Of a stretch of 64,000 bases of DNA, positions 2,983 through 34,927 are shown piece after piece (positions within the stretch are counted from its first letter, which is position 1; the number at the start of each line of letters is the position of its first letter). The notes beneath the pieces are model-generated. The model did no database searches. It had not been told where the DNA came from and worked only from the letters and a program-made list of their open reading frames with translations. The stretch spans positions 34,613-98,612 of IMG/VR virus record IMGVR_UViG_3300032092_000013; one strand, given 5' to 3'. Origin of the DNA: a virus. The position numbers and the translations under genes were made by a program.

Positions 2983-3007
2983 TTATAGTTGCGATACCTA
3001 TTATCAT
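2979..3007 (+). promoter_or_regulatory. Sigma70-type promoter of gp43, leaderless spacing
   Basis: TTGATT at 2979-2984, a 17 bp spacer, TATCAT at 3002-3007, then 6 nt to the ATG at 3014. With standard -10 numbering the transcript starts at the A of the ATG. The spacing is the same as at queC, dut and orf 5621. Confidence 0.55.
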
Positions 3008-3031
3008 TTCTCTATGATTGGGTATCGCAAC
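2988..3031 (+). promoter_or_regulatory. Inverted repeat spanning the gp43 start codon (candidate translational operator)
   Basis: Perfect 11 bp arms GTTGCGATACC (2988-2998) and GGTATCGCAAC (3021-3031). A further U-G and A-U pair extend the stem to 13. The 18 nt loop carries the polymerase ATG at 3014. The 5' arm lies in the promoter spacer, so only RNA reading in from the glycosyltransferase gene can form it. T4 gp43 represses its own mRNA through a hairpin at its start region; a similar role is inference. Confidence 0.6.
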
Positions 3032-5581
3032 GCTTGTTATAATCCTAAAGATCAAACTGTAGAAATTTACACTTGGTCAGACGATGGGGATCGTATTTCA
3101 TACACTACAAAATACCATCCCTATTATTTTTATGAAGACAAAAGAGGGAATGAAGTATCGATTTACAATACGCCATTAGCTAAAAGATCATTTAATAATG
3201 CATATGAACGGCAAAAGTATATTACCGAATCAGGAATTAGAAGGGTGTATGAACATTTCGGCGCAGTACAACAGGCCCTATTAGATATCTTTTGGCAACA
3301 TAATGAAACAGATGACTTTTCTAAGTTTCCTTTAAAGACATACTTTATTGATATCGAAGCAGTATGCAAAGATCGCTTTCCTGATCCTACATTAGCAGAT
3401 GTGCCTATTAACGTATTGACAATTTATGATTCCTTTTCAAAGAAATTTTATGCATGGGGTTTAAAACCATATAAAGCAAAAAGGAATGATGTTGTTTATT
3501 ATTATTGTAAATCAGAAGAAGACCTTCTAGCTGGTGTTATTGAATTTTTTAAGAATGATCCACCAGATGTATTGTCGGGCTGGAATAGTGCTGGGTTTGA
3601 TATTCCATACATTATTAATCGATTGAAGAATATCTTTGGTGAAGCTGGTATGAATGAAATTTCACCAGTAAAGAGAACTTATGTGAGAACATTCATTGGT
3701 ACATTCGGGAAGACACAAGCAAGCTATCATATCGATGGTATTTCATGTGTAGACTACTTGGATGTATATAAGAGATTCTCTTTTGCTAATAGAGAAAGTT
3801 ATAAATTAGATAGCATTGGTGAATTAGAATTAGGTGAAAAGAAAGTTGCTATCGAAAAGGATTTGTATGATGTCATGGTAGATGATTGGGATACGTTTAT
3901 TGATTATAACATTCAGGACGTAAACATTTTGGTTAAGCTTGAAGAGAAACTACAATTCCTTTCATTGATTCGAATGATTTCATATATTGGTTGTACAACA
4001 TTTGAAGGTGCATTGGGTACGTTGGGTATTATCACAGGCGCAGCTGCTATTAGAGCAAGAAAGAAAGGACAACGCATTTCTACTTTCATCAGAAAAGAAG
4101 ATGATGGTTCGAGGAATCCTGGGGCATATGTAGCAGAACCATTAAATGGATTTCAGGAAGATATTGTATCGTTTGATGCTAACTCACTATATCCTAACTT
4201 AATGATTTCATTGAACATGTCTCCAGAGACAAAAGTCGGCAAGATTATTGAAACAACAGATGAAGATGTAACAGTACAACATGTCAATGGCCAAGTCTTT
4301 AAATTGTCAAAACCAAAATTTGCACAATTTATTAAGAAAGAAGATGTGGCTATTAGTAAAGCAAAAGTCCTTTTTACGCAAAAGAATAAAGGAATTGTAC
4401 CAGAGATGGTTGATTTTTATTATCAAAAAAGAAAGGTTATTCAAACAGAACTCAAAAAATATAAGAAAGAATATTCAAATAAAGAATTACCATCTGATAG
4501 AAAATTATTTTTAGAAACAAAAATCACACAGCTTAACGCAAAGCAACAAAGTATAAAAATCTTTATCAATAGTTGTTACGGTTATTTCGGCAATAAACAC
4601 GCACCTATTGGAGATGATGATATTGCTTCATCAATTACATTGACTGGACAAGCCGTTATTAAACAAGCAAGAGAAATTGCAAAGAAATATATCTCAAAAC
4701 ATAGTAATATTACTGATCAAAAAACATTAGAAACTGTAGCAATTTATGGTGATACTGACAGTGTTTATCTTTCATTAAAGCTGCTTCCAATTGATTTTAG
4801 TAGTAATGGTAAAATAACAAAAGAAGGATTTGAACACGCAGAAGGTTTAGAAAATTCATTGAATGATGAGATTCAAATTTGGGCTAAATCAACATTAAAT
4901 TCAAAAGATTGTCGATTGGCATTTAAGAGAGAAGCGATGGCAGATGTCGGGCTTTTTTTAGAAAAGAAGCGCTATGTATTGCATGTATTAGATGATGAAG
5001 GTATTCCGTGCGATAAATGGAAATATACTGGTGTAGATGTAGTAAGAACAACAATGCCTAAGAATGTTAAACCATATGTAAAGAAGATCATTGAGACTAT
5101 GTTGACTACTAAGTCTTGTGCTAAGACAAATGAAGTGTTAAAAGAAGCATACGATGTATTCCAAGCATTACCTATTGAAGACGTATCAAGAACAAGTGGG
5201 ATTCGTGGTTATGAAAAATATGCGAATATGTGCCATGACTTTAAAGTGAGTAAAGGAATGCCTAATCATGTAAAGGCTGCTTATTTTCATAACATTATTT
5301 TGGATAAATTAAACCTTTCAGGAAAACATGAGAAGATTGCTTCCGGTGATAAGATCAAATACTTTTATGTACAACAACCAAATAAGTATGGAATTAATTG
5401 TATTGGATTTAAGTATGTTTTTCCTGAAGAGTTTAAATCAATATTTTTACCTGATAGAGAATTATTATTTGAAAAGATTGTATATGCAGCAGTAGAACGT
5501 TTTTATCAATGTGTTAATTGGACACCAAGAAAACCCAGCGAACAAGTTCTCTTTGAATTGGATGATCTATTTGGTGAATAA
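3014..5581 (+). CDS. 43: Family B replicative DNA polymerase (T4 gp43-like)
   Basis: An 855-residue family B polymerase with a 3'-5' proofreading exonuclease. Exo I is FIDIE (D113, E115), Exo II NSAGFD (D196), Exo III YNIQDVN (about 302). Polymerase motif A is DANSLYPNL (about 388), motif B has NSCYGYFGN and motif C is YGDTDS. T4 gp43 is 898 residues, so this is full length, with no intein or split. It would copy the phage genome with clamp gp45, loader gp44 and SSB gp32, all present in the window. The start at 3014 is supported by a sigma70-type promoter 6 nt upstream. The start codon lies in the loop of a strong inverted repeat (2988-3031). Confidence 0.96.
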   Translation: MIGYRNACYNPKDQTVEIYTWSDDGDRISYTTKYHPYYFYEDKRGNEVSIYNTPLAKRSFNNAYERQKYITESGIRRVYEHFGAVQQALLDIFWQHNETDDFSKFPLKTYFIDIEAVCKDRFPDPTLADVPINVLTIYDSFSKKFYAWGLKPYKAKRNDVVYYYCKSEEDLLAGVIEFFKNDPPDVLSGWNSAGFDIPYIINRLKNIFGEAGMNEISPVKRTYVRTFIGTFGKTQASYHIDGISCVDYLDVYKRFSFANRESYKLDSIGELELGEKKVAIEKDLYDVMVDDWDTFIDYNIQDVNILVKLEEKLQFLSLIRMISYIGCTTFEGALGTLGIITGAAAIRARKKGQRISTFIRKEDDGSRNPGAYVAEPLNGFQEDIVSFDANSLYPNLMISLNMSPETKVGKIIETTDEDVTVQHVNGQVFKLSKPKFAQFIKKEDVAISKAKVLFTQKNKGIVPEMVDFYYQKRKVIQTELKKYKKEYSNKELPSDRKLFLETKITQLNAKQQSIKIFINSCYGYFGNKHAPIGDDDIASSITLTGQAVIKQAREIAKKYISKHSNITDQKTLETVAIYGDTDSVYLSLKLLPIDFSSNGKITKEGFEHAEGLENSLNDEIQIWAKSTLNSKDCRLAFKREAMADVGLFLEKKRYVLHVLDDEGIPCDKWKYTGVDVVRTTMPKNVKPYVKKIIETMLTTKSCAKTNEVLKEAYDVFQALPIEDVSRTSGIRGYEKYANMCHDFKVSKGMPNHVKAAYFHNIILDKLNLSGKHEKIASGDKIKYFYVQQPNKYGINCIGFKYVFPEEFKSIFLPDRELLFEKIVYAAVERFYQCVNWTPRKPSEQVLFELDDLFGE

Positions 5582-5585
5582 AGGG

Positions 5586-5614
5586 TTGACAAATATTGCA
5601 ATATTACTAATATA
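5586..5614 (+). promoter_or_regulatory. Sigma70-type promoter of orf 5621, leaderless spacing, with palindrome in the spacer
   Basis: TTGACA at 5586-5591, N17, AATATA at 5609-5614 (or TAATAT one base to the left), 6 nt, ATG 5621. The spacer contains the perfect 14 bp palindrome AATATTGCAATATT (5592-5605), which could be an operator. Confidence 0.5.
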
Positions 5615-5620
5615 TTAAAG

Positions 5621-5968
5621 ATGTCACAACTAATTTTTATTGACCAAATCGGAAGAACCATTATCGGTGAAGAACTTTCACGTGATGGTGGTCGTCTACA
5701 AGTGAAGAATCCTTGTATGATTAATGTAAATCAATTGCAAAATGGGCAATTGCAAGTTCAATTATTTCCACTTTTCTTTCCTGAATTTCTTTCAGAAGCC
5801 AATCGTAGCAGCGGTTCTGTTTTTGAATTTAATCTTGCTAATCTTGCATTAGGTGTAGGTGTAGAAGTAGACGGGCGTTTAGTAGAACAATATACTCGTA
5901 TTTGTAATCCACCGCCTGTTGCTCAAACATCTGACGAACCACCCGTCATTAAGTTGTTTGATGAATAA
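5621..5968 (+). CDS. Conserved small phage protein, function unknown (possible Sm-like barrel)
   Basis: A 115-residue protein with no signal peptide or membrane segment. The N-terminal half alternates beta-prone stretches (LIFIDQIGRTIIGEEL, then RLQVKNPCMINV, then QLQVQLFPLFFPEFL), and the C-terminus is Pro-rich. This pattern resembles small Sm/Hfq-like beta-barrel proteins encoded by many T4-like marine phages, but that is only an impression from the strand pattern. It has its own promoter directly at the ATG and is followed by a strong terminator (5993-6029), so it forms a one-gene unit between the polymerase and uvsX. Confidence 0.7.
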   Translation: MSQLIFIDQIGRTIIGEELSRDGGRLQVKNPCMINVNQLQNGQLQVQLFPLFFPEFLSEANRSSGSVFEFNLANLALGVGVEVDGRLVEQYTRICNPPPVAQTSDEPPVIKLFDE

Positions 5969-5992
5969 TTTTGTTTGCTGAGTGTTGTGTGT

Positions 5993-6029
5993 AAAATCCC
6001 GAGAGATTTAAATCTCTCGGGATTTTTTT
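5993..6029 (+). terminator. Rho-independent terminator after orf 5621
   Basis: Perfect inverted repeat with arms 5993-6007 and 6012-6026 around a TTAA loop. The core is CCCGAGAGATT/AATCTCTCGGG and it runs into a T tract ending at 6029. It separates orf 5621 from uvsX. Confidence 0.9.
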
Positions 6030-6051
6030 ATAGTTTGATTTAATATGAGTT

Positions 6052-7146
6052 ATGGACAAAGACCTATTAAAATCATTAGAAATTTTAGATGACGGTAATC
6101 CTTTCGCGACATTCCTTTCTCAGTCTACTTTATCAGTTATTGATAAATGGATTGATACTGGTTCATATGTTTTAAATGCTATTATCTCTGGAAAGATTCG
6201 TGGTGGTGGTATTCCTTCGGGCCGGGTTACCATGTTATATGGTGAATCACAAACTTTTAAATCTTCTTTGGTTATGAAGATTCTTGCCAATGCTCAGAAA
6301 CAAGGAATGATTCCGGTTATTTTTGATACAGAGAATGCTGTAGATCCAGAAAGTGCTTCGCGCCTAGGATTAGATACGACAAAGGTAAAATATGTACCTA
6401 CTTTTAATGTTGAACAATGTCGTAATGCTATTCATAAATTTTTGACATCTGTAAAAGAAAAAGGACAAGAAGGCAAATTCATTATTGCCATTGATTCTCT
6501 GGGTAATCTTGAAAGTCAAATGGAACAATCACGTATTGAGAAAGATTCTGTAGCACCTGATATGGGATCAAGAGCTCGTGCTATTAAAACACTACTTAGA
6601 ACAGTAACGCAACTTTCTGCTATTACTAAAACACCCGTTTTGATTACAAATCACTTGTATGATAATCCAGCAGAATTACATCCATCATTAGTCAAGACAA
6701 TGCCTGGCGGTAAGTCAGTCATTTATATGCCTTCTGTATCAGTTCAATTAATGAGAAAGCCCGTCAAAGAAGATGTTGTCAAATCAGATTCATCTGGATT
6801 AGCTACATTCCAACGCAATTACGTCGGCATTATCATTCGTGCATTAACTTCAAAGAATCGTTTTATTAAACCATATCTAGAAGGAGAATTATATGTATCA
6901 TTTACTAATGGTGCAGACAAGTATCATGGATTATTAGATCTTGCTGTTGGATTAGGCATTATTGAACAATCTGGTGCTACTTATGCTTTTAATGGTGAAA
7001 AGCTAGGATATGCAAAGAGCTTTTTGAATAATGTAGATTTTTGGGAAAATGATATCATTCCTTTAGTAGAAAAGAAGATTGCTGTTGAATGGGCATATTC
7101 TTCATCAGAAGATGCAGAATCAACTGAAGTCGAAGACGAAGAATAA
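6052..7146 (+). CDS. uvsX: UvsX/RecA-like recombinase
   Basis: A 364-residue RecA-fold strand-exchange ATPase. Walker A is GESQTFKSS (residues 64-72), a FDTENAVDPE segment follows, and the Walker B region is FIIAIDSLGNLES. Loop regions MPGGKSVIYM and the acidic C-terminal tail fit T4 UvsX (391 residues). It would form the presynaptic filament and act with gp32, gp46/47 and gp41 in recombination-dependent replication. It starts after a strong terminator, so it needs its own promoter. A TAATAT sits 5 nt before the ATG (6041-6046) but no good -35 is seen. Its mRNA would read into orf 7155, whose start lies in a hairpin. Confidence 0.93.
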   Translation: MDKDLLKSLEILDDGNPFATFLSQSTLSVIDKWIDTGSYVLNAIISGKIRGGGIPSGRVTMLYGESQTFKSSLVMKILANAQKQGMIPVIFDTENAVDPESASRLGLDTTKVKYVPTFNVEQCRNAIHKFLTSVKEKGQEGKFIIAIDSLGNLESQMEQSRIEKDSVAPDMGSRARAIKTLLRTVTQLSAITKTPVLITNHLYDNPAELHPSLVKTMPGGKSVIYMPSVSVQLMRKPVKEDVVKSDSSGLATFQRNYVGIIIRALTSKNRFIKPYLEGELYVSFTNGADKYHGLLDLAVGLGIIEQSGATYAFNGEKLGYAKSFLNNVDFWENDIIPLVEKKIAVEWAYSSSEDAESTEVEDEE

Positions 7147-7182
7147 ATAATATCATGCAAAATGATACAGATTTAATCTTCG
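7137..7182 (+). promoter_or_regulatory. Long imperfect hairpin enclosing the start of orf 7155
   Basis: CGAAGA/TCTTCG (7137-7142 with 7177-7182), one A/A mismatch, TAAAT/ATTTA (7144-7148 with 7171-7175), a 2x3 internal loop, TATCAT/ATGATA (7151-7156 with 7162-7167) and a GCAAA loop. This gives 17 pairs. The ATG (7155) is paired and the late promoter is the 5' arm. Read-through uvsX RNA would hide the start; the late transcript would not. Confidence 0.55.
7142..7149 (+). promoter_or_regulatory. T4-type late promoter AATAAATA, 5 nt before ATG 7155
   Basis: AATAAATA at 7142-7149 overlaps the uvsX stop codon. Five nt separate it from the ATG, so the transcript would start at the ATG. Confidence 0.65.
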
Positions 7183-7538
7183 AAGCCTATAAAGAAATCT
7201 ATTCAGAAGGATGGAAAGATGTTACTGCAGCCCTATTAATGATGGTAGGTGCTGCGGCGGGTGCAGGTAAAATAGGTAGTGAAATTTCACAGCGTTTAGG
7301 TGGTTATGAAAAATTAACACCACCTCAAATTGAACGGGGGGTTTTAACTGCTGATCAACAATCAATTAAAAATTATTTAGAAAAAATGATGCATATTAGT
7401 GAGCTCAATGCAGTTCCAAGGCAGCATTTAGATGCTCTTAAGGCAATTTCTGAAAATGAGAAATATCCAGCGGAATCAGCAGAAGCAAAAAAAATTCTCT
7501 CAATTATGAGAGATAGAGCTAGCCGAAAATCATTTTAA
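7155..7538 (+). CDS. Late protein of unknown function, probable virion component
   Basis: A 127-residue protein beginning MQNDTDLIFEAYKEIY, a type of opening often seen in T4-like virion proteins. A small hydrophobic Ala/Gly/Met stretch (AALLMMVGAAAGAG, about residues 25-38) is followed by a polar helical region. A perfect-spacing late element (AATAAATA-N5-ATG) supports both the start and late expression, although the gene follows uvsX by only 8 nt. That a late gene should be shielded from the early uvsX transcript fits the hairpin seen over its start. No family was recognised; a head-internal or head-completion protein is possible but not shown. Confidence 0.75.
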   Translation: MQNDTDLIFEAYKEIYSEGWKDVTAALLMMVGAAAGAGKIGSEISQRLGGYEKLTPPQIERGVLTADQQSIKNYLEKMMHISELNAVPRQHLDALKAISENEKYPAESAEAKKILSIMRDRASRKSF

Positions 7539-7541
7539 TTA

Positions 7542-7570
7542 TTGATTAAAAATATAATTTAAGTTATAAT
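7542..7570 (+). promoter_or_regulatory. Sigma70-type promoter of queC, leaderless spacing
   Basis: TTGATT at 7542-7547, N17, a consensus TATAAT at 7565-7570, 6 nt, ATG 7577. This is the best match of this class in the window. Confidence 0.65.
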
Positions 7571-7600
7571 AACCACATGACTAATACTCATGTGGTTATT
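7568..7600 (+). promoter_or_regulatory. Perfect 13 bp hairpin over the queC start codon
   Basis: Arms AATAACCACATGA (7568-7580) and TCATGTGGTTATT (7588-7600) with loop CTAATAC. The ATG (7577-7579) is paired in the 5' arm. A transcript starting at 7577 would lose 9 of the 13 pairs, whereas read-through RNA from orf 7155 would keep all of them. Confidence 0.65.
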
Positions 7601-8320
7601 CCTTTTTCTGGGGGTATGGATTCCTCGGTGCTTGTACATTTAGCCTTATCAGAAGGATACTTTGTGCATGTTTTATCATTTAATTATGGCCAAAGACATT
7701 CACAGGAATTAGATTGTGCATCTAAACAAATTCAGAAATTAAAGTCTTTATATCCGAATTTGAAATCATATAAGACTATTGATGTGTCTTATATTAAAGA
7801 TATTGCACCTACATCATCATTAACTAATAATGATATTGAGACACCAGATGTGCGCAAAATTAAAGGTGAAGCGCAACCAAAATCATATGTTCCTAATCGC
7901 AATATGATGTTTCTATCTATTGCATCAGCTTGGGCAGAATCAATCGGTGCTTCTGAAGTATGGCATGGTGCCGCACAAGCAGATTCATTAGCAGGTTATT
8001 GGGATGGATCACCTGAATTTTTAGAATCAATTAACAATGTTCTTTCTTTGAATAGAGAAAAACGAATTGAAATTAAAGCACCATTAATCGAATTAAGTAA
8101 AGCAGAGATTATTAAATTGGGTGTAAAAAAGAAAGTAGACTTCAGCTTGACTTATACCTGTTATTCAGGAGAAGAAAAACCTGATGCATATTCAGCATCA
8201 TCTTCGTTAAGATTGCAAGGTTTTATTGAAGCAGGATACAAGGATCCCCTACAATATAAACAGCAAGACCAATTAGAAGAAGCGTATAAGAAAAAAGGCT
8301 GTAAAGAAATTAACCTCTAA
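7577..8320 (+). CDS. queC: QueC-like 7-cyano-7-deazaguanine synthase homologue lacking the zinc cysteines
   Basis: A 247-residue QueC-family protein. The ATP-pyrophosphatase loop SGGMDS is at residues 11-16. Family blocks SFNYGQRHSQE, YVPNRNMMFLS and APLIELSKAEII are all present. Bacterial QueC converts 7-carboxy-7-deazaguanine to preQ0 and binds zinc through CxnCxxCxxC. Here the first cysteine remains (TCYSG, about residue 195), but the following CxxCxxC is replaced by DAYSASS. The ATP site is intact, so the protein is probably an active ATP-dependent ligase or amidotransferase with altered structure or chemistry. A class II amidotransferase gene lies nearby at 9617. No QueD, QueE, FolE or DpdA gene is in the window. 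It has its own promoter and a start-codon hairpin. Confidence 0.88.
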   Translation: MTNTHVVIPFSGGMDSSVLVHLALSEGYFVHVLSFNYGQRHSQELDCASKQIQKLKSLYPNLKSYKTIDVSYIKDIAPTSSLTNNDIETPDVRKIKGEAQPKSYVPNRNMMFLSIASAWAESIGASEVWHGAAQADSLAGYWDGSPEFLESINNVLSLNREKRIEIKAPLIELSKAEIIKLGVKKKVDFSLTYTCYSGEEKPDAYSASSSLRLQGFIEAGYKDPLQYKQQDQLEEAYKKKGCKEINL

Positions 8321-9566: not shown

Positions 9567-9571
9567 AACTA

Positions 9572-19181: not shown

Positions 19182-19211
19182 AAAGAATGTTACGTGCTGT
19201 AATTATTCTTT
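19182..19211 (+). promoter_or_regulatory. Hairpin over the start codon of orf 19187
   Basis: AAAGAAT (19182-19188) pairs with ATTCTTT (19205-19211). Inside it TTAC (19190-19193) pairs with GTAA (19199-19202) around a 5 nt loop. The ATG (19187) is in the 5' arm. A transcript starting at 19187 would lose most of the outer stem. Confidence 0.5.
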
Positions 19212-19594
19212 TTGTGACATCAGGCACAATATCATATATATTTTCTAGTGATGTAAAAACATTTTTTGGTTGGATGATTTGCTTATCTTTTTTGCAAATT
19301 ATATTTTATAATGTTTGGAATACATTTCTCAATGTTATTAATGAAAAAAATCAAATTGAAATTTTGAAAGAATATTCTAAACAAGGCTGTAACGTAAAAT
19401 GTCCATGTGATAAAGCAATTGATAATTTCATCCCTATTAGGTTAGATGAAGATAATTCATATCGTTGTTTAGAATGTAATAAAAATGTTCGTGTTAATCT
19501 AGAAATCAAGACATTTCTGCAAACAGAACCGGTAAAGTTAGAAAAATCTGAAGCTTATAATTTAGTATACAAAGAAAATGGAGAACCAGTTTAA
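19187..19594 (+). CDS. Membrane protein with C-terminal zinc ribbon, function unknown
   Basis: A 135-residue protein with two predicted membrane helices (AVIILFVTSGTISYIF, then FFGWMICLSFLQIIFYNVW) and a cytosolic tail holding four cysteines in two pairs (VKCPCDKA and CLECNK), a small zinc ribbon. It has an early-type promoter with leaderless spacing, so it is probably expressed early, perhaps as a host-takeover or membrane factor. It overlaps the next gene by 17 nt. No family was recognised. Confidence 0.7.
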   Translation: MLRAVIILFVTSGTISYIFSSDVKTFFGWMICLSFLQIIFYNVWNTFLNVINEKNQIEILKEYSKQGCNVKCPCDKAIDNFIPIRLDEDNSYRCLECNKNVRVNLEIKTFLQTEPVKLEKSEAYNLVYKENGEPV

Positions 19595-19985: not shown

Positions 19986-20271
19986 AAATATTGAAGTTAC
20001 TATTGGTGATCATAAGATGTCAGTTGAAACATATGCTCGTTGGCTTTGCTTGATCGAAGCTTTGGATATTGTTACTAAGACTGCTGAAGAGCATAATATT
20101 GATTTGAATAAAAGAACAGATTGGATTAAACCGTTAGACTTCCAAAAGTATATTGTAGAAAGAGCACCAGCTATGATTCATGACGTAAAGGTTGAAGAAT
20201 TCATCTATGATCTAGAAATTCTTAAGGAAGAGGATTTCCGTAGCAATGAAAATTGCGCACCTTCAATTTAA
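19978..20271 (+). CDS. Small helical protein of unknown function
   Basis: A 97-residue acidic protein (MNKNIEVTIGDHKMSVETYA). It starts inside the previous stop region and its last 50 bp are antisense to the end of the lectin-like gene at 20222. It is the last gene of the early operon that begins at 19187. No motif is recognised. Confidence 0.62.
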   Translation: MNKNIEVTIGDHKMSVETYARWLCLIEALDIVTKTAEEHNIDLNKRTDWIKPLDFQKYIVERAPAMIHDVKVEEFIYDLEILKEEDFRSNENCAPSI

Positions 20272-20842
20272 ATCCATCACTACCTTGTATGGGTGTAGCA
20301 AATGATATGCCCATATATAATTTTTGGGGTTCTAGAAAAGTTGATAATGTTTCAACTGATGAAATTAATTTATAATTAAAATTTTCATCACAATAAAATG
20401 AATTTAATGTATTTCCTTTATTCGTTAATTGGAATCTTAATGTCTGCCAGATATTAGAATTAATGTAAAAATCTAATCCATGTGATGTGACTAAATCAAA
20501 TTGTGTACCTTTTCTATAAGTGAGTGAATTAAAAATAGGTAAAGACAATCCTGTATTAAATCCAGACCCGGATGTTCCAAAATAACCAGTTGTGTCGAAT
20601 CCCATCGCCAAAAAATTTGCATCAACACCGTTATAATTGTCTGTGCCTGATACAAAAGGACCATAACCCAATCCATATTTTATACCACCTTGACTTTGTG
20701 CCGATAGAAAATTTAAAAAAGTAGTAAATCCACCACCACCAAAAACACCCGGATCATTTTCTATTTTATAAGAGAATGACCATATGATATCTTTAGAAGC
20801 ATCAAAAGCGGAAATACAGGTAAAGTTCATTCCAGTCGACAT
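20222..20842 (-). CDS. Lectin-like beta-sandwich protein, probable virion adhesin or decoration
   Basis: A 206-residue minus-strand protein. Its strand pattern and motifs resemble bacterial/legume-type lectin (concanavalin-like) domains: IIWSFSYKIENDPG, GGGFTTFLNFLSAQ, GIKYGLGYGPF, FLAMGFDTTGYFG, and the C-terminal LYMGISFATPIQGSDGFKLK. It has no signal peptide. It is transcribed from a late element divergent with the fibre gene at 20874, so a receptor-binding or surface-decorating role is likely. Its 3' end overlaps orf 19978 on the opposite strand. Confidence 0.7.
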   Translation of the reverse strand: MSTGMNFTCISAFDASKDIIWSFSYKIENDPGVFGGGGFTTFLNFLSAQSQGGIKYGLGYGPFVSGTDNYNGVDANFLAMGFDTTGYFGTSGSGFNTGLSLPIFNSLTYRKGTQFDLVTSHGLDFYINSNIWQTLRFQLTNKGNTLNSFYCDENFNYKLISSVETLSTFLEPQKLYMGISFATPIQGSDGFKLKVRNFHCYGNPLP

Positions 20843-20844
20843 TA

Positions 20845-20871
20845 AAAGTATTTAATAAGTGTAAATACTTT
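20845..20871. promoter_or_regulatory. Symmetric divergent late promoter pair
   Basis: Perfect 10 bp inverted repeat AAAGTATTTA (20845-20854) / TAAATACTTT (20862-20871), loop 7. Each arm carries a late-type TAAATA followed by CTTT and two bases before a start codon: minus ATG at 20842, plus ATG at 20874. Elements are ATTAAATA on the minus strand (20849-20856) and TGTAAATA on the plus strand (20860-20867), both with 6 nt gaps. Confidence 0.6.
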
Positions 20872-20873
20872 CA

Positions 20874-23495
20874 ATGTCCGGAAATGCACGTTTTCATGAT
20901 AAATTACACAGAGCCAATCACCATACATTGTCTACTGGTGGTTTATTGGATAGTGCTTATGATCCTATTGCTTCGCCAGAACACCCATTTCGAGGTGATT
21001 TCATATTAAGCGGTGGCCTGTCAGCATTGGGTGATATAATAGCAAATGGGTTAACAATCAAAAACGCAATAAATATTGAAGGTAATACTACCACACAAAA
21101 TCAAACTATTGTAGGTAGTTTAGAATTGCATAAACAACATTATGGCGGAACCGCTATATACGCAATCAATCCCACTACAAACCCCCAACCATATACATTA
21201 TCAATAAATTATCAAAATGGTGTTTTTGTTTCAGATAATTTTTATGTAGGTGGCAATACAATTACAAATGATATAACAGCAAACGGCACAATATATGGAA
21301 AATTGCCAGCAATAGGGATATATGCACCAAATACATGGGATATCAGCAGCAGCTATTATACTTTATGTTCTCTTTCAGCTAATTGGACACAAGCAACTAC
21401 ATGGGTGAATACAAATTCATCCAATATGTCAGTAAATAATTTACTTGTTACTGGTAATTTAACAGCGTTGGGTTCTACTACATTAGTTAATTTGACTACG
21501 AATACATCTGATTCTCTCAGTGTAGTAAATGTAGGTTTGGCTGTACCGGCAATATATGCCGAAATTGTTACTGCAGATAAACCAGTTTTATCATTAAAAC
21601 AAAACGGAATTGGGCCAATTTTATCAGCTACTAGTACTAATTCGACATTTATAATAGGGAATAGTGGTTGGGTGGGCATAGGAGGTACGCCTTCTACACA
21701 ATTAGATATATATGCATTATCATCTACTGTAGATGGTGGTAATTTAAAATTGAGGGGTGCTACAGGTTCAAGTAAAAACTATGTTGTATCTGTAAAAAAT
21801 TCAAATTTAAATTTTTCTCACACACCTACTAATAGTGATACAAAAACGGTAGCGATGGCCGTTACGCCTTCTAATCAATTATCGATAAATGCAGAATCAG
21901 TACCGGGTTGGGCGGGTACTGACCCCAAACTTTATGTGGCCGGTGGATTTCTTTTATCGGGATCCAATCAAACAATAGTCGAGAATATAGATTATCAAAA
22001 TATTTATAATTATGATAATATGGTGCCCGAAAGAGGCGGCGCGATAACAAGAATATATAATTTATCGGGTAATAGTGCCACACCTTTATCCGGATTTAGC
22101 TCAAACCCCGGATACAATGCGCCGGGTTACTATACTGCTTGGAGTATGAGAGTTTATCCGTATGTTGGTGGTACATTGGGCAGTGGTTATGGCGCCTTGG
22201 GCGGCGGCGGTGTTGCGCGCATAGATATTGGTTATGAGGGGCTACAATCACAAGCAGAATTAAAGGGTGTAATTTCATTTGCTACATTATGCGCATCACA
22301 AATCACTTCAGTTCCTGGTACTGTGGAACGCATGCGTATAAATTCAGTTGGTAATGTAGGTATAGGAATATCACTACCAACATATAGATTACACGTTTTG
22401 GGAGACAATGATAATGATATAAACTTCATGACCAATGGTACTTTGGGTGTTTATAATAAATTGGATGCAAATAGATCTTATGGATTTTTATCTGTATCCC
22501 AACAGTACACATTACTCGGATCTAATTTAAGATTATCTGGTGAAACAGCATCGCCAGTTTACAAAAAAGGTACAAACGCGCGCGCTGGTGCAGGCATATT
22601 AATATATAATGCAAATGGCACCAACGCAATACCTACTACAAAATTTGTATATTCACCAGATACAGATAATGATTTGTATACTGTAAGTGAATCAATGGTG
22701 ATAAGCGGGGCTGATGTAATTATACCCGGTAATTTATATATTAATGGTGATTTTTACGGGAATGCAACGTATAGGTCTTTGACATCAAATTGGCAAAATA
22801 CTTATAGTACAGTCAATAGCAATAGTGCTACTACATGGTCCTATCAAGGAGCAGACTTAAAGGCTTTAACAGGCAATTGGCAGAATACTTATAGTACAGT
22901 ATCTACTATGAGTGCTATATGGAGCAGCACATTGCCTACCGATCACACAAAATGGGATAGTACATATAATACTGTTAGTTCCTTAAGCAGTAATTGGCAG
23001 AATACTTATAGTACAGTCAATAGCAATAGTGCTACTACATGGTCCTATCAAGGAGCAGACTTAAAGGCTTTAACAGGCAATTGGCAGAATACTTATAGTA
23101 CAGTCAATAGCAATAGTGCTACTTGGAATGCTGTTACTACATATGTAAAATTTAAATCATATTCCGAAACATCTGTGACAGTATCTATTCCTGGTACTTT
23201 TATATATGCAGTAGATTTGTCACAAGGCACAGTATTTCCAATTACATTAGATAAAAATATTACAAGTTTCCAACTTCAAAATATACCAACAGGTGTTAAT
23301 TCGTTTTTGATACTTTTAACACAAGATGGAACAGGCGGCAAGACAGTAACGTGGGCATTTACTGGAAAAACAATTAAATGGAGTGGCGGTGCACCTACTG
23401 TTACATCTACAGCAAATGCTACCGACATATACTCTTTTATGAGTGTAGATGGAAATACCTGGTACGGATCAGTAGCAGGCAAAAACTTTGTTTAA
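20874..23495 (+). CDS. Tail-fibre-like virion protein with internal repeats
   Basis: An 873-residue Ser/Thr/Asn/Gly-rich protein. It opens MSGNARFHDKLHRANHHT, followed by fibre-like beta repeats (TIYGKLPAIGIYAPNTWDISS, GWVGIGGTPSTQLDIYA, VGNVGIGISLPTYRLHV) of the type seen before chaperone- or receptor-binding ends. Towards the C-terminus a segment NWQNTYSTVNSNSATTWSYQ repeats, encoded by a 113 bp duplication. The end (about 800-873) is a compact domain with SFLILLTQDGTGGKTVTW, typical of phage structural C-termini. The same STYSTVxSNSATW motif occurs in the fibre at 60823, suggesting recombination between fibre genes. Confidence 0.8.
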   Translation: MSGNARFHDKLHRANHHTLSTGGLLDSAYDPIASPEHPFRGDFILSGGLSALGDIIANGLTIKNAINIEGNTTTQNQTIVGSLELHKQHYGGTAIYAINPTTNPQPYTLSINYQNGVFVSDNFYVGGNTITNDITANGTIYGKLPAIGIYAPNTWDISSSYYTLCSLSANWTQATTWVNTNSSNMSVNNLLVTGNLTALGSTTLVNLTTNTSDSLSVVNVGLAVPAIYAEIVTADKPVLSLKQNGIGPILSATSTNSTFIIGNSGWVGIGGTPSTQLDIYALSSTVDGGNLKLRGATGSSKNYVVSVKNSNLNFSHTPTNSDTKTVAMAVTPSNQLSINAESVPGWAGTDPKLYVAGGFLLSGSNQTIVENIDYQNIYNYDNMVPERGGAITRIYNLSGNSATPLSGFSSNPGYNAPGYYTAWSMRVYPYVGGTLGSGYGALGGGGVARIDIGYEGLQSQAELKGVISFATLCASQITSVPGTVERMRINSVGNVGIGISLPTYRLHVLGDNDNDINFMTNGTLGVYNKLDANRSYGFLSVSQQYTLLGSNLRLSGETASPVYKKGTNARAGAGILIYNANGTNAIPTTKFVYSPDTDNDLYTVSESMVISGADVIIPGNLYINGDFYGNATYRSLTSNWQNTYSTVNSNSATTWSYQGADLKALTGNWQNTYSTVSTMSAIWSSTLPTDHTKWDSTYNTVSSLSSNWQNTYSTVNSNSATTWSYQGADLKALTGNWQNTYSTVNSNSATWNAVTTYVKFKSYSETSVTVSIPGTFIYAVDLSQGTVFPITLDKNITSFQLQNIPTGVNSFLILLTQDGTGGKTVTWAFTGKTIKWSGGAPTVTSTANATDIYSFMSVDGNTWYGSVAGKNFV
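22788..22900 (+). repeat. 113 bp direct repeat, copy 1 (fibre gene)
   Basis: Matches 22992-23104 with one difference (GGCAAAA versus GGCAGAA). The offset is 204 bp, an exact multiple of three, so the repeat is in frame. Confidence 0.9.
22992..23104 (+). repeat. 113 bp direct repeat, copy 2 (fibre gene)
   Basis: Near-identical to 22788-22900. A third partial copy of the first 40 or so bases of the unit starts at about 23080. Confidence 0.9.
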
Positions 23496-27468: not shown

Positions 27469-27473
27469 GAAGC

Positions 27474-28727: not shown

Positions 28728-28730
28728 AAA

Positions 28731-29327: not shown

Positions 29328-29345
29328 AAAAGGACTCAAAAAAAG

Positions 29346-29353: not shown

Positions 29354-29361
29354 AGTCCTAT

Positions 29362-31998
29362 ATGAGAACTATTCAGTCACCTGGCGTGGAAATTCGCGAA
29401 ATTGATGCATCACAAGTCGCCTTCCAACCAGTAGGAACAAACGTATTTTTAGCGGGGTTTGCCCAACGCGGGCCAACCGATGAAGTATTGCAAATTACTT
29501 CAGTACAAGAATTAGAACAAATTTATGGCACACCAGTTACACCAGCTGAAAGATATTTTTATCATTCTGCAAAACAAATTGTAACAGATTCTAATGCCAA
29601 TTTATATGTAAATAGATTGCCATATGGCCCTGGTGCTGGTTATGGATATGGTTCATCTTATGGTGCATTAGTGTATCCTCTTGTGACATTAGAAGAAGAT
29701 AAGAGTTCAACAGTATGGCGTGCTACAAAATCTGTCCCATCCAGTGCATTTGATTTTGCGGACAGTGGGTTGGATTTATCTTTTTTGGGTGGTATTTCGG
29801 TTGAATGGAATGATGCTCAAATCAGCACATTAACAAGTCAAGGTATATCTTTATACAATAAAGATCTAGCAGTATTGAATGATGCAAAGTATAATGATTT
29901 GTTCATAATAATGGGATATGCGTCAAATCCATCAACCATAATAGAAGCACAAGAGACAGTTATGGCTTCGTTTTTATCCGGCAACCAAATTTCCGTGACT
30001 GACAATATAGCTGTATCTGCGGGAACTTACGTTTTAGGCGCGCCAAAATTCTTTGAATTATCTTTAGATCAATATAATGCAGTAATTGAAGGGACAGCGT
30101 TTAATTGGTCCACAACGTCAGCTGTTTTAAGTGATATTAATTCAGTAGCTGATTTTGGAAAAGCTGGCTTGATTATTCTTAATAAAGGACAGACTGTAAC
30201 AGAAGCACAAGCAGAAGGATTCTATGCTGCGATTACTGATAATACAAACGCAGAACCAACAACTGATCATGACAGCATTTTAAATGCATATACAGTAACT
30301 CAAGCAGCACCCCCAACAGGATTATTTGGTGACGGATTTACTCAAATCCCCGCAGAAAGATTAAATTTCTCATTATCTGGTGGTTCAGACACCGGTGTTG
30401 TACGCGATGATTCGAACATTTCATATAATCTCGAGCGTACTTTTTATAATTTCCCTGATTCAACCACAGAAAAATTTGACGATACATTATCAATCAGTGT
30501 TTATAAATTGAGAAGATCCATTTATACGCCAGATGCTATTAAGATGGATTATGTTCTAGAACGCAATCATATAGGATCACTTGATTTTAATCGTAAAATA
30601 CAAGATGTAAATGGCGGTGAAGCAGTATCTTATTTCATTTCAGCACCTCAAAAAGAAAGCAGAGCTATTAAAATCATTGTTAATGATAATATCACAAATA
30701 GAGGCGGTGATACATGGTTGAATGAAGTTGGAATTCCACGCAAGAAGGTAAGGCTTTATACAAGATCAACATTAAAGGCTCTAGAGGCAGATAATACATC
30801 CGGATATAGATTCGGTGGTTACTATCATGATTTCGTATCATTATCAGCAAAACTAGGATATAGTGATGCATTGTATCCAACTGGTCCATATACAAATTTA
30901 AATATCAAAACAAAAGATATAGGAAATTTACCGAATAAGATTGAAAATGCGTTATATAAAGTTGAAAATGACGAATTATTTGATTTAGATCTTGTCGTCG
31001 AAGGCGGACTTGGTACAATCTATACAACATGCTGTGCAAATAAGGTCACTTACTTTGATGATACCGTAGTATCTGATAATTTTGCCACCGGATTAACTAA
31101 TTTAAAAACAACCGGTGAATATTTCGAACCTTCTGATGGTAGTCAGGATCTAAGAGGACTCTATCATACCATTTTCTCACGATTTGATACATTCTGTTCC
31201 TCAGCTAGAAAAGATTGCATGTTTATTGCTGATCCTTTAAGACAAATATTTGTTAAAGGTGAAAATAGTAAAGTGTTACCTAATGCAAGTAATTCATTCT
31301 CACGTGACATTTACACTGCATTAAAGAATCTTTTCGGACTAGCTAATACAAATTATTCATGCTCTTATGGCAACTGGGCCAAGGTATATGATCCGGTAGC
31401 AGGATTAAACATTTGGGTGCCTTTTTCACCATTTGCAGCTACAAGCTTTGTTAATACTGATGCTAATTACTATCCATGGTATGCTCCAGCCGGATTCACA
31501 CGCGGTAAAGTACGCAATGTTCTCGAATTAGCCATAGCACCTAAACAAAAAGAAAGAGATCAATTATATAAAATTTCAGTAAATCCCGTAGCATTCTTCC
31601 CCGGAGATGGTATTACGATCTTCGGTCAAAAGACAATGCAGCGTCAACCCAGTGCTTTTGACCGCATTAATGTAAGAAGATTATTCTTATATCTCGAAAA
31701 AGCTACAAAGAAGACAGTCAAATACTTCGTATTTGAACCTAATACAACATTTACGAGAACACGTTTAGTGAATACGCTGAATCCGATCTTCAATTTTGCT
31801 AAATCAACCCAGGGAGTAGCTGATTATATGATTGTAAGCGATAAAAGAAACAACACTCCTGATTCAATCGATAGTAACGAATTGGTAGTTGATATATACA
31901 TCAAGCCTGTTCGAGCATCTGAATTCATTTTAGTGAACTTTATTGCTACTAGAACTGGAGCTAATTTCAGTGAATTAATCAGTGGTCCACGTCTCTAA
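29362..31998 (+). CDS. 18: Contractile tail sheath protein (T4 gp18-like)
   Basis: An 878-residue sheath protein, longer than T4 gp18 (659). The N-terminal signature is SPGVEIREIDASQ, then TNVFLAGFAQRGPTDE and TSVQELEQIYGTP. The C-terminal conserved domain includes YPWYAPAGFTRGKVRNVLE, DGITIFGQKTMQ, RINVRRLFLYLEKA, and a final strand VRASEFILVNFIATRTGA. The extra length is in the central protruding domains (about 150-450). It has the strongest late promoter match, as expected for a highly made virion protein. Confidence 0.95.
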   Translation: MRTIQSPGVEIREIDASQVAFQPVGTNVFLAGFAQRGPTDEVLQITSVQELEQIYGTPVTPAERYFYHSAKQIVTDSNANLYVNRLPYGPGAGYGYGSSYGALVYPLVTLEEDKSSTVWRATKSVPSSAFDFADSGLDLSFLGGISVEWNDAQISTLTSQGISLYNKDLAVLNDAKYNDLFIIMGYASNPSTIIEAQETVMASFLSGNQISVTDNIAVSAGTYVLGAPKFFELSLDQYNAVIEGTAFNWSTTSAVLSDINSVADFGKAGLIILNKGQTVTEAQAEGFYAAITDNTNAEPTTDHDSILNAYTVTQAAPPTGLFGDGFTQIPAERLNFSLSGGSDTGVVRDDSNISYNLERTFYNFPDSTTEKFDDTLSISVYKLRRSIYTPDAIKMDYVLERNHIGSLDFNRKIQDVNGGEAVSYFISAPQKESRAIKIIVNDNITNRGGDTWLNEVGIPRKKVRLYTRSTLKALEADNTSGYRFGGYYHDFVSLSAKLGYSDALYPTGPYTNLNIKTKDIGNLPNKIENALYKVENDELFDLDLVVEGGLGTIYTTCCANKVTYFDDTVVSDNFATGLTNLKTTGEYFEPSDGSQDLRGLYHTIFSRFDTFCSSARKDCMFIADPLRQIFVKGENSKVLPNASNSFSRDIYTALKNLFGLANTNYSCSYGNWAKVYDPVAGLNIWVPFSPFAATSFVNTDANYYPWYAPAGFTRGKVRNVLELAIAPKQKERDQLYKISVNPVAFFPGDGITIFGQKTMQRQPSAFDRINVRRLFLYLEKATKKTVKYFVFEPNTTFTRTRLVNTLNPIFNFAKSTQGVADYMIVSDKRNNTPDSIDSNELVVDIYIKPVRASEFILVNFIATRTGANFSELISGPRL

Positions 31999-32009
31999 TA
32001 TAGTTAACC

Positions 32010-32017
32010 CATAAATA
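32010..32017 (+). promoter_or_regulatory. T4-type late promoter CATAAATA, 5 nt before tube gene ATG 32023
   Basis: CATAAATA (32010-32017), AGTAT, ATG 32023. A short 5 bp CCATA/TATGG repeat (32009-32013, 32022-32026) includes the ATG. Confidence 0.7.
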
Positions 32018-32022
32018 AGTAT

Positions 32023-32625
32023 ATGGCAGACACAATACAAACAATCAGAGGGTTTTACGACAGAGCAGCTGTTGCAGATTTCGCGCGTGATTACTTATTT
32101 CGCGTAATGATGATCCGCACAGGTACCATGTTTCTAGGTGAAGAAGAGTTAGTATATGTAAAAACAGCTACTCTTCCTGGCAGAAATATTGAAAATGAAG
32201 CTGTCAAGTACATGGGGATGAATTTTAACATTCCCACGATTGCAACATATCCCAATTCTGAAGCATTTACTTTGACTTTTTATTGTGATGCCAATTCACT
32301 CTTGAGAGAAAGACTCATGTCTGAATCCCGTGCTGTGTTTAATGATGCAACTAGCACTGGTACGTATAATACACCGGGACGTGATAGCTATATTGAATTG
32401 TTACAATTAGATAAAAAACTGGAACCCGTCATGCAATATACATTATTCGGCGCATCTATTCGCAATGTAGGTGAAATTGCTTATGAAATTGCAGAAGGCA
32501 CTGGCAGTGTTAAAACATTTGATGTAACGTTTGCTTACCATTTCTTCGAAGAAAAGAGACCAGGCCAGTTCGCTTTAAATAATATCACCAATGCATTCCC
32601 AAATATTAATGCTTTCTTGACATAA
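32023..32625 (+). CDS. 19: Tail tube protein (T4 gp19-like)
   Basis: A 200-residue tube protein directly after the sheath. It has family features DYLFRVMMIRT, YVKTATLPGRNIEN (the PGR strand), IATYPNSEAFTLTFYCDAN and FDVTFAYHFFEE. T4 gp19 is 163 residues. It would form the inner tube through which DNA passes. It has its own late promoter, allowing higher expression than upstream genes. Confidence 0.92.
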   Translation: MADTIQTIRGFYDRAAVADFARDYLFRVMMIRTGTMFLGEEELVYVKTATLPGRNIENEAVKYMGMNFNIPTIATYPNSEAFTLTFYCDANSLLRERLMSESRAVFNDATSTGTYNTPGRDSYIELLQLDKKLEPVMQYTLFGASIRNVGEIAYEIAEGTGSVKTFDVTFAYHFFEEKRPGQFALNNITNAFPNINAFLT

Positions 32626-32634
32626 CTAATATAA

Positions 32635-33306
32635 ATGGCAGAAAACATTAACTCACCCAGAGAACATTTTCTTAGTAATATATCTGTTTGGGAATTAGAT
32701 GTTCCTTTACAGACTCAATGGGTAGTTAGAATTGCACCCAAAGCTAGTTTAATAGATTTTTTTAGCTCCGTTCTTAGACATACTACTGTAGATCATTCAC
32801 TGTTAGGTGATGTAACAAAATATTCACATTTTGAAAAGTTTCTGGGTACACGTGGTAATGCATTGGAAGAAGGGTTGGGATTGTATTTTGCACAAGGTGT
32901 TGAAATACCCGGTGAATCTCTAGATTTGGAAATGGCATCGATGCAAGGAGACAATGGTTTTTTACAAGGTAATTTAGTCAAAAACAGGGCTTCTGGAAAC
33001 AAAAGAGAACTTTCCATAAAACTATTAGAAACAAATTTAGATTTTATGGACGGCCTAATTAGACCATGGATAATTGCTGCTGGCTACATGGGCACATGTG
33101 CCGCTCCCGGGAGAACCTCAATTAAGTGTGATATACAAATTGTTCAATATACTAAAGGTCCTACCAAACCTGTTAGAAAAATACATAATTTTATAGATTG
33201 CGTGCCATACTCATGTGAGGGTAGTACATTGCAATATGACCAAGAAAACATAGTTGCAAAAAACGTATCATGGATTTATAATTATTATCATTATAAATTA
33301 ATATAA
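32635..33306 (+). CDS. Second tube-like virion protein
   Basis: A 223-residue protein 9 nt after the tube gene. It has a tube-type start (LDVPLQTQWVVRIAPKASLI), a GVEIPGESLDLEM element matching the PGR strand, RELSIKLLETNLDFMDGLIRPW as the conserved helix region, and a C-terminal strand with SCEGSTLQYDQ. It may be the tail-tube initiator or terminator (gp54/gp3 class). Its 3' end carries the 5' arm of a hairpin over the next start codon. Confidence 0.6.
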   Translation: MAENINSPREHFLSNISVWELDVPLQTQWVVRIAPKASLIDFFSSVLRHTTVDHSLLGDVTKYSHFEKFLGTRGNALEEGLGLYFAQGVEIPGESLDLEMASMQGDNGFLQGNLVKNRASGNKRELSIKLLETNLDFMDGLIRPWIIAAGYMGTCAAPGRTSIKCDIQIVQYTKGPTKPVRKIHNFIDCVPYSCEGSTLQYDQENIVAKNVSWIYNYYHYKLI

Positions 33307-33310
33307 TGAT
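33287..33310 (+). promoter_or_regulatory. Perfect 9 bp hairpin over the start of orf 33306, with late-like TATAAATT
   Basis: ATCATTATA (33287-33295), loop AATTAA, TATAATGAT (33302-33310). The ATG (33306) is in the 3' arm. TATAAATT at 33292-33299 lies 6 nt before the ATG, so a transcript from it would lack the 5' arm. Confidence 0.5.
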
Positions 33311-34142
33311 CAAATCAAATTTTTATACAACCTTATATCTACCGGGTTGTAAAAAAAATATTAGAGTCAATGAAATTAACAATTTCTATTATCTAGATAT
33401 TTTAAAATTTATTCAAAATAATGATATATCTGATTTAAATCACTTTCTGGATAAAGTAATTAAAGAAAATACAGATGCAGATATTAATGAATTGAGTAAT
33501 GTAGACAAATTTTGTATTTTAGTTGAAATGCGATCTATTTCTATAGGTAATATCATAGAATTTTTTATTGACAATACACACATAAAATATAATTTGTCTG
33601 ATATCTGTAAAAATATTCAAAATTTAGAATTAAAATCTACAGAAATAGAATTTTGTGGAATTCCTATCATCATAGATATGCCTAGAAATTTTATTTTTAA
33701 TGAAAATGAAGACATATTGTTTCAATGCATTACTACTGTTGGTGATTTAAATTTAAATATTGTAAATGAATCAGAAAAAAAATTAATTTACAGTGCATTG
33801 CCGGCACATGTATATTCTGATATTAAAAAATTTATTACAGATACATCTGATTTTTTTGATCAAAAAAATATTTTTTCAATATTAAATATTGATTCTTTCA
33901 AAAATTTCAAACTAAATCCATTTAATACAACATTTATTGAATTTTTGAAATCTATATATAATGATAGTTTAACAAATTTTTATGATTTGCAATTTAGTTT
34001 AATAACAAAATTAAACATATCATATGAACATTTTATGTCTATGACATTTAATGAATCAAGAATGTATGTTGCCTTACAAAACAAAGAAATAAAGAAACAA
34101 GAAGAGTCACAAAAGAAATCAGGTGGAAATTTGGCATTATAA
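33306..34142 (+). CDS. Baseplate hub assembly protein (T4 gp26/gp51-like)
   Basis: A 278-residue protein overlapping the previous stop by 1 nt. The N-terminal domain follows the gp26-type pattern: a short beta opening (TLYLPGCKKNIRVNEINNF), YLDILKFIQNND, then DKFCILVEMRSISIGN, which matches the conserved helix of hub assembly chaperones, followed by a beta segment. The C-terminal helix (SYEHFMSMTFNESRMYVAL) is of the type that contacts the tape measure. It lies in front of a second related protein and the tape measure, matching the T4 51/26 order near hub genes. Confidence 0.6.
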   Translation: MIKSNFYTTLYLPGCKKNIRVNEINNFYYLDILKFIQNNDISDLNHFLDKVIKENTDADINELSNVDKFCILVEMRSISIGNIIEFFIDNTHIKYNLSDICKNIQNLELKSTEIEFCGIPIIIDMPRNFIFNENEDILFQCITTVGDLNLNIVNESEKKLIYSALPAHVYSDIKKFITDTSDFFDQKNIFSILNIDSFKNFKLNPFNTTFIEFLKSIYNDSLTNFYDLQFSLITKLNISYEHFMSMTFNESRMYVALQNKEIKKQEESQKKSGGNLAL

Positions 34143-34143
34143 G

Positions 34144-34151
34144 CATATATA
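34144..34151 (+). promoter_or_regulatory. Weak late-like element CATATATA before ATG 34157
   Basis: CATATATA (34144-34151), 5 nt, ATG 34157. It has one mismatch from CATAAATA at a conserved position, so it is low confidence. Confidence 0.3.
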
Positions 34152-34156
34152 ATTTT

Positions 34157-34891
34157 ATGGGTATTAATGATATTCTTCATAAATTAAATGAAATTAACAA
34201 CGAAGACAACATTAAAATATTAATCCCCTCATTAAATCGACTAGTTGCTTTTAAGCCATTATCGTTACAACAACAAAAAGATATATTAAAAGCTGGTATT
34301 TCATCTGAAATTTTTAATATATTGGAATTTAATGCTATTTTTAATAATATTATTGAACAAAATAGTTTAGAAAAAAATAATTATCTACTGCACGATAGAC
34401 CCACGATAGCCATGGCTTTTAGAAATAAATTTACGACACATGCTTTAGAAATTGATGAACAAACTATAGATACTAGCATTTTTAATGACAGACACATTTC
34501 TTTTGACAAAGAAACATTTAATGAATTTTATATTGAAGAAGGTTTATTAAAAATAACAGCACAGGCACCTTCTTTACATGAAGATCAAATTATAACAAAA
34601 TTACAACTATCAAAAATTAAAAAAACAAATAATATTGATATTACAAATGTTATAGGAGAAATGTATGTATTCGAAATTTTAAAATACATAAAATCTATAC
34701 AAGTCGGTGAATTAAAACAAGAATTAATTACTCTTTCAATTGAAGATAGAATCAAAGTTGTTGAACAAATACCCGCGTCTATAATTACTAAATTAAATGA
34801 TCTAATCACAGAAAAATTCAAAAACCCCGAAGATGAATATTTGACCGTAGGTAGCAAAAAAATTACGTTAGACGCTAGACTCTTTGTTTGA
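34157..34891 (+). CDS. Second baseplate hub assembly protein (gp26/gp51-like)
   Basis: A 244-residue protein. Its N-terminal part (KILIPSLNRLVAFKPLSLQQQKDILKAG) has the same beta-hairpin-then-helix opening as its upstream neighbour and phage hub assembly proteins. The remainder has a central beta part and C-terminal helices (VFEILKYIKSIQVGELKQE). The two adjacent genes are probably the counterparts of T4 gp51 and gp26. Which is which cannot be told. Confidence 0.5.
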   Translation: MGINDILHKLNEINNEDNIKILIPSLNRLVAFKPLSLQQQKDILKAGISSEIFNILEFNAIFNNIIEQNSLEKNNYLLHDRPTIAMAFRNKFTTHALEIDEQTIDTSIFNDRHISFDKETFNEFYIEEGLLKITAQAPSLHEDQIITKLQLSKIKKTNNIDITNVIGEMYVFEILKYIKSIQVGELKQELITLSIEDRIKVVEQIPASIITKLNDLITEKFKNPEDEYLTVGSKKITLDARLFV

Positions 34892-34927
34892 AGATTTTGC
34901 CATTAAATAATTATAATGGCAAAATCT
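34892..34927 (+). promoter_or_regulatory. Perfect 14 bp hairpin over the tape measure start codon
   Basis: AGATTTTGCCATTA (34892-34905), loop AATAATTA, TAATGGCAAAATCT (34914-34927). The ATG (34916) is in the 3' arm and the late promoter element occupies the loop. It is the longest perfect stem at a start codon in the window. Confidence 0.65.
34902..34909 (+). promoter_or_regulatory. T4-type late promoter ATTAAATA, 6 nt before ATG 34916
   Basis: ATTAAATA (34902-34909), ATTATA, ATG 34916, within the hairpin loop. Confidence 0.55.

Follow-up and report, generated by a model that had tools for sequence, protein, structure and literature searches.

In bacteriophage T4, the Shine-Dalgarno sequence (SD), the AUG or both are hidden in the early or middle read-through RNA of genes e, soc, 49 and I-TevI, and the late RNA lacks the 5' strand of the hairpin (PMC3014915, PMC2988022); for gene e the effect of the hairpin is 100-fold (PMC3014915). 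The hairpins of I-TevII, I-TevIII, segB and Aeh1 mobE, homing endonuclease genes with leadered mRNAs, likewise have a late promoter within the hairpin region 5' of the start (PMC2988022). Leaderless mRNAs, for example those of mycobacteria, start at or beside the start codon and have no SD (PMC4633059). Here we describe hairpins over the start codons of a T4-like phage whose mRNAs are predicted to be leaderless in the same sense. The window analysed is a stretch of 64,000 nucleotides, bases 34,613-98,612 of the virus record IMGVR_UViG_3300032092_000013, which spans 98,612 bases and is labelled G000; sites outside the window carry the prefix G: and the coordinates of the whole record. An earlier note on the window had listed hairpins at six starts (gp43, orf 7155, queC, orf 19187, orf 33306 and the tape measure) and proposed that each gene is translated only from its own promoter. 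We consider the narrower reading that a subset of genes in the lineage bears a source-dependent hairpin that would close the AUG in read-through RNA only, and give it a probability of about 0.58.

The parallel with T4 e, soc and 49, drawn by the earlier note, is apt, the principle being the same and shared also by I-TevI. As in those genes, the promoter lies between the arms, a long RNA would hide the start, and the gene's own RNA, lacking the 5' arm, would be open. The T4 mRNAs, however, have leaders and a hidden SD and/or AUG, whereas here there is no SD and the mRNA is predicted to start at the AUG. The hairpins described here also cover the sigma70-type early genes queC and gp43, and they extend beyond lysis and homing functions to replication, tail and queuosine genes. 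In T4 the effect has been measured; here it is predicted at the level of sequence. When T4 was folded in this analysis, gene 49 was clear (z -3.9) and soc weak. Unlike the mycobacterial leaderless mRNAs, those considered here belong to a T4-like phage lineage with predicted sigma70-type and T4-type late promoters. We found no description of leaderless T4-like phages with such hairpins in a literature search that covered subscription journals only partly.

The phage has a GC content of 31%, and family matches in the window include a gp43 family B DNA polymerase, a RecA/UvsX-type recombinase, a gp32-like protein and queC, together with a T4-type terminase and tail sheath. The terminase is only about 38% identical to those of the closest named phages, phiM9 and XG4, and a megablast search of 25 kb against known phages gave no match. 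Among IMG/VR records, the close relatives L002-L006 share 83-98% DNA identity across the replication region, and many others share 65-70%. No match in the window exceeded the gathering score of any Rfam family, and no tRNAs were found.

The leaderless-type architecture of the starts is the sturdier result, and possibly a more useful one than the hairpins, since gene finders that expect an SD may misplace the starts of this lineage. In the main record the late box TAAATA ends 5 or 6 nt 5' of the ATG at 23 of 111 starts, and across relatives TATAAT ends exactly 6 nt ahead of the ATG (44 starts in G010), with TTGA at the matching -35 distance. SD-like words are not enriched over background (9 versus 6 in G000, with 111 starts; 13 versus 16 in G010; 10 versus 19 in G024), whereas T4 has 41 versus 6 at 85 starts. 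T4, phiM9, XG4 and S-PM2 have no TAAATA or TATAAT at the leaderless distance, and SD words are plentiful in them. The spacing of T4-type late promoters is well established, and taken with the box distances it puts the predicted +1 at or beside the A of the ATG, for early-type and late-type promoters alike. The lineage carries predicted leaderless-type promoters of both classes, sigma70-type and T4-type late, with the mRNA 5' end expected at the A of the ATG.

Two further observations concern these upstream regions. Strong stems peak 45-60 nt 5' of promoter-bearing starts in relatives, a position that fits terminators just ahead of the promoter. The 10-mer AACGAAACCA has three copies in the record, each 24-26 nt 5' of an ATG with a -10-like box between: at record 28403(+), a phage-helicase-like gene; at 4837(-), which we take to be a folE-like gene from the look of its sequence, without a search; and at 48776(+), or window 14164, gp32. 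This element may be a middle-promoter element that stands in place of the -35 box.

The hairpins found at starts, with their promoters and genes, are as follows.

2979-3007, plus strand: predicted gp43 promoter, sigma70-type TTGATT-17-TATCAT, 6 nt before ATG 3014, with the predicted +1 at the A of the ATG
2988-3031, plus strand: gp43 start hairpin, 11-bp arms 2988-2998 and 3021-3031 (GTTGCGATACC/GGTATCGCAAC), loop 22; an inner helix 3003-3007/3014-3018 (ATCAT/ATGAT) pairs the ATG, and an outer helix lies at 2981-2987/3038-3044 (GATTATA/TATAATC)
3014-5581, plus strand: gp43-like family B DNA polymerase gene (PF00136, 5e-33)
7137-7182, plus strand: hairpin at the orf 7155 start with 17 interrupted pairs; ATG 7155 follows the late box TAAATA at a distance of 5 nt
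7542-7570, plus strand: predicted queC promoter TTGATT-17-TATAAT, 6 nt before ATG 7577
7568-7600, plus strand: hairpin at the queC start, 13-bp perfect with a loop of 7 (arms 7568-7580 and 7588-7600), then CCTTTTT, terminator-like
7577-8320, plus strand: queC, queuosine biosynthesis (PF06508, 1.3e-54)
33287-33310, plus strand: orf 33306 start hairpin, 9-bp perfect, 33287-33295/33302-33310, ATG in the 3' arm
34892-34927, plus strand: tape-measure start hairpin, 14-bp perfect, 34892-34905/34914-34927, with the late box TAAATA at the loop (34904-34909) and a 3' arm that contains ATG 34916
34916-36886, plus strand: probable tape-measure gene, so named by the earlier note, from tail-cluster position and length
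G:6697, minus strand: 13-bp stem at a start outside the window
G:4813, minus strand: 12-bp stem running into TTTTTTCC, at a start outside the window

A family search with the tape-measure gene gave weak matches only and no specific tape-measure family.

Perfect stems were ranked over the whole record (loop 3-25), with a stem score of 2 per A-T pair and 3 per G-C pair. Of the top seven, five span or overlap a start codon, those of the tape measure (14 bp), queC (13), G:6697- (13), G:4813- (12) and gp43 (11); an intrinsic terminator and an intragenic stem make up the rest. Mosaic controls, in which the upstream half of one gene is joined to the downstream half of another, gave about 0.1-0.2 start-spanning perfect stems of this class where five were observed. 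The inverted repeat that ranks first in strength over the whole record, with 17 perfect base pairs and a loop of 4, lies within a minus-strand gene (record 20257-20294).

Read-through RNA was folded over -40 to +35 and each gene's own RNA from the ATG to +35. The z values of the folds were -7.2 for gp43, -5.4 for G:6697-, -5.2 for the tape measure, -3.6 for queC, -3.2 for orf 7155, -3.1 for G:4813-, -1.2 for orf 33306 and -0.4 for orf 19187. The AUG is paired in the minimum-energy read-through fold of gp43, queC, orf 7155 and the tape measure, and the gp43 fold, with its inner and outer helices, has 23 pairs and -26.8 kcal/mol. The predicted probability of an open AUG in read-through RNA is at most 0.002 for gp43, orf 7155, the tape measure and G:6697-, and 0.04 for G:4813-, rising to 0.7-0.97 in the own RNAs of the same genes; several genes of relatives are likewise predicted to be closed in read-through RNA and open in their own. 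The 5' arms begin 9-26 nt 5' of the ATG and, with +1 predicted at the ATG, sit upstream of it, so that the own RNA would lack them. The placement of these arms upstream of or straddling +1, already given in the earlier note, is thus right as a prediction from promoter spacing. By z values and own-RNA folds, four of the six hairpins first listed are good (gp43, orf 7155, queC and the tape measure), that of orf 33306 is moderate, and one fails.

19187-19594, plus strand: orf 19187, start hairpin unsupported

This last hairpin was rejected, its z value being -0.4 and its own start-to-+35 RNA equally closed.

Enrichment was assessed in a family-wide set of 2,308 non-redundant starts from relatives, with promoter classes assigned by regular expressions. 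Late-promoter starts with a co-directional neighbour (n=230) have nine stems of score at least 18, against 0.76 in class-matched mosaics. Neighbours were excluded from these mosaics because swapped halves of divergent partners recreate perfect complements and inflate the null for divergent genes. Against 24 control positions in the same genes, which retain the general inverted-repeat excess of the genome, the counts with two split points allowed are 13 versus 2.84 (odds ratio 4.8, p 1.6e-5), and 9 versus 2.09 when the clade of the window is left out (p 5e-4). Starts with sigma70-type promoters show a weak excess (8 versus 3.4 at score at least 16, p 0.024), and starts without a recognised promoter (n=400) show none, with 6 stems against 6.3 expected. 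A strong stem is present on only about 5% of late starts. Stem enrichment at late co-directional promoter starts is likely; what the sequence itself shows is the presence of the stems, the spacing of the promoters and the surplus of stems at starts that bear a promoter. A standard layout recurs with striking regularity in unrelated genes of relatives, where the loop holds the late box and the ATG lies in the 3' arm, as in [AACTCATATAGAG]ataataaata[CTCTATATGAGTT] (G025), [AGCATACA]taaatact[TGTATGCT] (G024) and [ATCCATGT]taaatatat[ACATGGAT] (G023).

The kind of imperfect pair that the stems tolerate bears on whether they act as RNA. If G.U is allowed in the mRNA sense, the number of stems of score at least 18 rises from 15 to 23, with 15 wobble pairs; if A.C is allowed, it rises from 15 to 16, with one pair. 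Neither control positions nor mosaics show a difference between the two. DNA palindromes predict G.T to equal A.C, and the G.U bias at starts therefore favours structure in the sense RNA, although the numbers are small and the wobbles of one stem are not independent.

In close relatives several arms are retained. The gp43 promoter and the 17-nt spacer holding the 5' arm are unchanged in L002-L006, and the other arm has one change, from G-C to G.U. Five relatives share the queC 5'-arm segment from -9 to -1 without change, with promoter spacers that are only 57-63% identical; other genes with diverged upstream regions have a mean identity of 67%, with a few at 100%. The orf 7155 start region is largely kept in L002-L006, although four of these have a different gene body. 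The orf 33306 stem is 9-11 bp in close relatives, where its 5' arm doubles as coding sequence for the C-terminus of the preceding protein. Tape-measure proteins are only about 30-41% identical, yet four relatives, G001, G003 and L181 among them, pair with different arms (stems of 14 bp, 8 bp, 7 bp, and 11 pairs with a bulge). Orthologous late genes in different phages have unrelated arms (G023/G025; G008/G016/G025; orf 33306 versus L213 and L218). Together, the retention within the close clade and the unrelated arms at a distance suggest that arms persist among close relatives and arise anew over greater distances. As to covariation of the arms in relatives, which the earlier note had named as a check, pairing is preserved in close relatives for gp43, queC and orf 33306 and tape-measure arms differ yet pair; the stem of G:6697- is eroding in G001, most distant orthologues have no stem, and diverged orthologues with a stem are too few for a formal count.

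Some of these loci also differ among relatives in ways separate from the hairpins. In L002-L005, compared with window 7220-7524, the promoter, hairpin and first ~22 codons of orf 7155 are retained and the remainder of the gene is replaced. Identity between G001 and the window is 97-98% in the replication region, but only about 35-41% in the tape measure and 57-63% in orf 33306, indicating a swapped tail module. The gp43 gene, uninterrupted in the window, is split into two reading frames in close relatives (window 4468-4790 compared with L003 5464-7381); the second L003 frame has about 150 extra residues after YGDTDSV, ending HN|S, and this insert looks like an intein or part of a split intein at the polymerase active site.

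We propose that RNA entering from an upstream gene would hold both arms, placing the AUG in the stem or loop, and that the folded RNA would prevent ribosomes from initiating there, or from re-initiating once they have terminated at the upstream stop. A transcript begun at the gene's own promoter would start at or beside the A of the ATG, without the 5' arm, and stay open. We infer here that +1 is the A of the ATG, that read-through transcripts occur and that translation is reduced by the fold. Since an internal AUG without an SD may initiate poorly in any case, the main effect may be on re-initiation; the end of the upstream gene is mostly 9-50 nt away. Expression class appears to switch at several of the stems: late orf 7155 follows early recA, early queC follows late orf 7155, late G:6697- follows a sigma70 gene and G:4813- follows late genes.

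Several observations, in this paragraph and the next, weigh against this proposal. The upstream stops of the tape measure, gp43 and G:6697- lie in or next to the 5' arm, where a terminating ribosome could melt the stem, and this is the weakest point of the model. The queC own RNA retains a weak 4-bp stem, with an open-AUG probability of 0.05. Beyond the close clade, neither the gp43 stem nor the queC stem has a counterpart in relatives at about 60% identity, the G:6697- stem is eroding, with three mismatches in G001, and most stems are missing from distant orthologues. A new sample of 73 late co-directional starts, covered in two scans, gave 2 stems versus 1.08 at score at least 18 and 2 versus 0.33 at score at least 20 (p 0.07); both stems have the standard layout, and this underpowered replication did not reproduce the enrichment significantly. 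As both the promoter patterns and the thresholds were chosen in the course of exploring the data, we hold the enrichment to be likely and not settled.

44060-44089, minus strand: hairpin at the start of 44083(-), a divergent late gene; 11-bp perfect and 12 bp when folded, over the ATG, then a T tract (TTT to TTTTT)

This hairpin is borne by a gene without a co-directional neighbour. It contradicts the claim that genes with divergent neighbours are free of such hairpins, as do 18798, with a 9-bp AT-only stem and the ATG in the loop, and 18779(-), with a fold z of -2.1. A rule confining the hairpins to co-directional starts was rejected on account of 44083(-) and of rates that are not clearly different (9 of 230 co-directional and 4 of 127 divergent). 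Late divergent starts have 4 stems against 1.3-1.5 expected (p 0.02-0.05), in part reflecting symmetric divergent promoters, and with this excess the restriction to co-directional starts is not established. One such symmetric arrangement, at window 20842-20874, is the promoter region shared by two divergent late genes, with a 10-bp inverted repeat AAAGTATTTA/TAAATACTTT. Of the proposal that each gene is translated only from its own promoter, the promoters, the stem excess, the G.U bias and the folds support the core; its application to each gene, the co-directional limit and deep conservation of the arms are not supported.

An alternative explanation is that in some genes the hairpin is an intrinsic terminator over the start codon, which would stop read-through RNA and spare the gene's own transcript, so that the source gate would operate at transcription. 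The combination of a stem and U-rich sequence fits G:4813-, whose 12-bp stem runs into TTTTTTCC, and roughly fits queC, where CCTTTTTCTG follows the stem and the score is terminator-like, and 44083(-), whose stem runs into TTTTT. At these three, termination of read-through RNA is an equally good mechanism, and ordinary terminators are common 45-60 nt 5' of leaderless starts. There is, however, no U tract at gp43, the tape measure, orf 7155, orf 33306 or nearly all of the hairpins of relatives, and we regard this alternative as unlikely.

It is also improbable, in our view, that the inverted repeats arise from mutation, through template switching at melted promoters, or serve a DNA-level promoter action, with no RNA gate. 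Consistent with such an origin, perfect inverted repeats are in excess genome-wide (33 versus 2-6 in shuffles at score at least 22, many of them intragenic), the arms turn over fast, and a weak stem excess is seen at late divergent starts too. The preference for G.U over A.C in the sense strand at starts, absent at control positions, argues against it, as do stems that exceed the local background with no excess at starts without a recognised promoter, and the arms of queC and gp43 kept in relatives. Chance pairing in AT-rich sequence could be suspected at a GC content of 31%, and the stems of 19187 and 18798 are of this type; composition-matched mosaics, dinucleotide shuffles, a control that the earlier note had called for, and same-gene control positions all gave far fewer strong stems, making chance very improbable for the set. 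Least credible is an autogenous polymerase operator at gp43: T4 gp43 does bind a hairpin 5' of its own start codon (PMC3014915), but that operator, a short hairpin whose loop is UAAC, lies in a leader about 40 nt upstream, whereas here the stem encloses the ATG, the loop differs, the gene's own RNA is predicted to lack the 5' arm, and the idea cannot cover the other genes.

The source-dependent closing of the AUG in read-through RNA could belong to a broader arrangement, which we put forward tentatively: the lineage may have dropped leaders and SD sequences and may express many genes each from a promoter of its own placed right on the start codon, with upstream terminators and start-sealing hairpins insulating genes both ways, early genes being silent in late read-through RNA and late genes in early. 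If true, the read-through hairpin of T4 would be extended from a few leadered late genes to a leaderless system in which about 35 bases accommodate the promoter, the start codon and the 5' arm. Such a system would show how a phage with many close promoters keeps the expression of neighbouring genes independent, and its simple sequence rule, a promoter box inside a stem containing the ATG, can be scanned for in other leaderless genomes.

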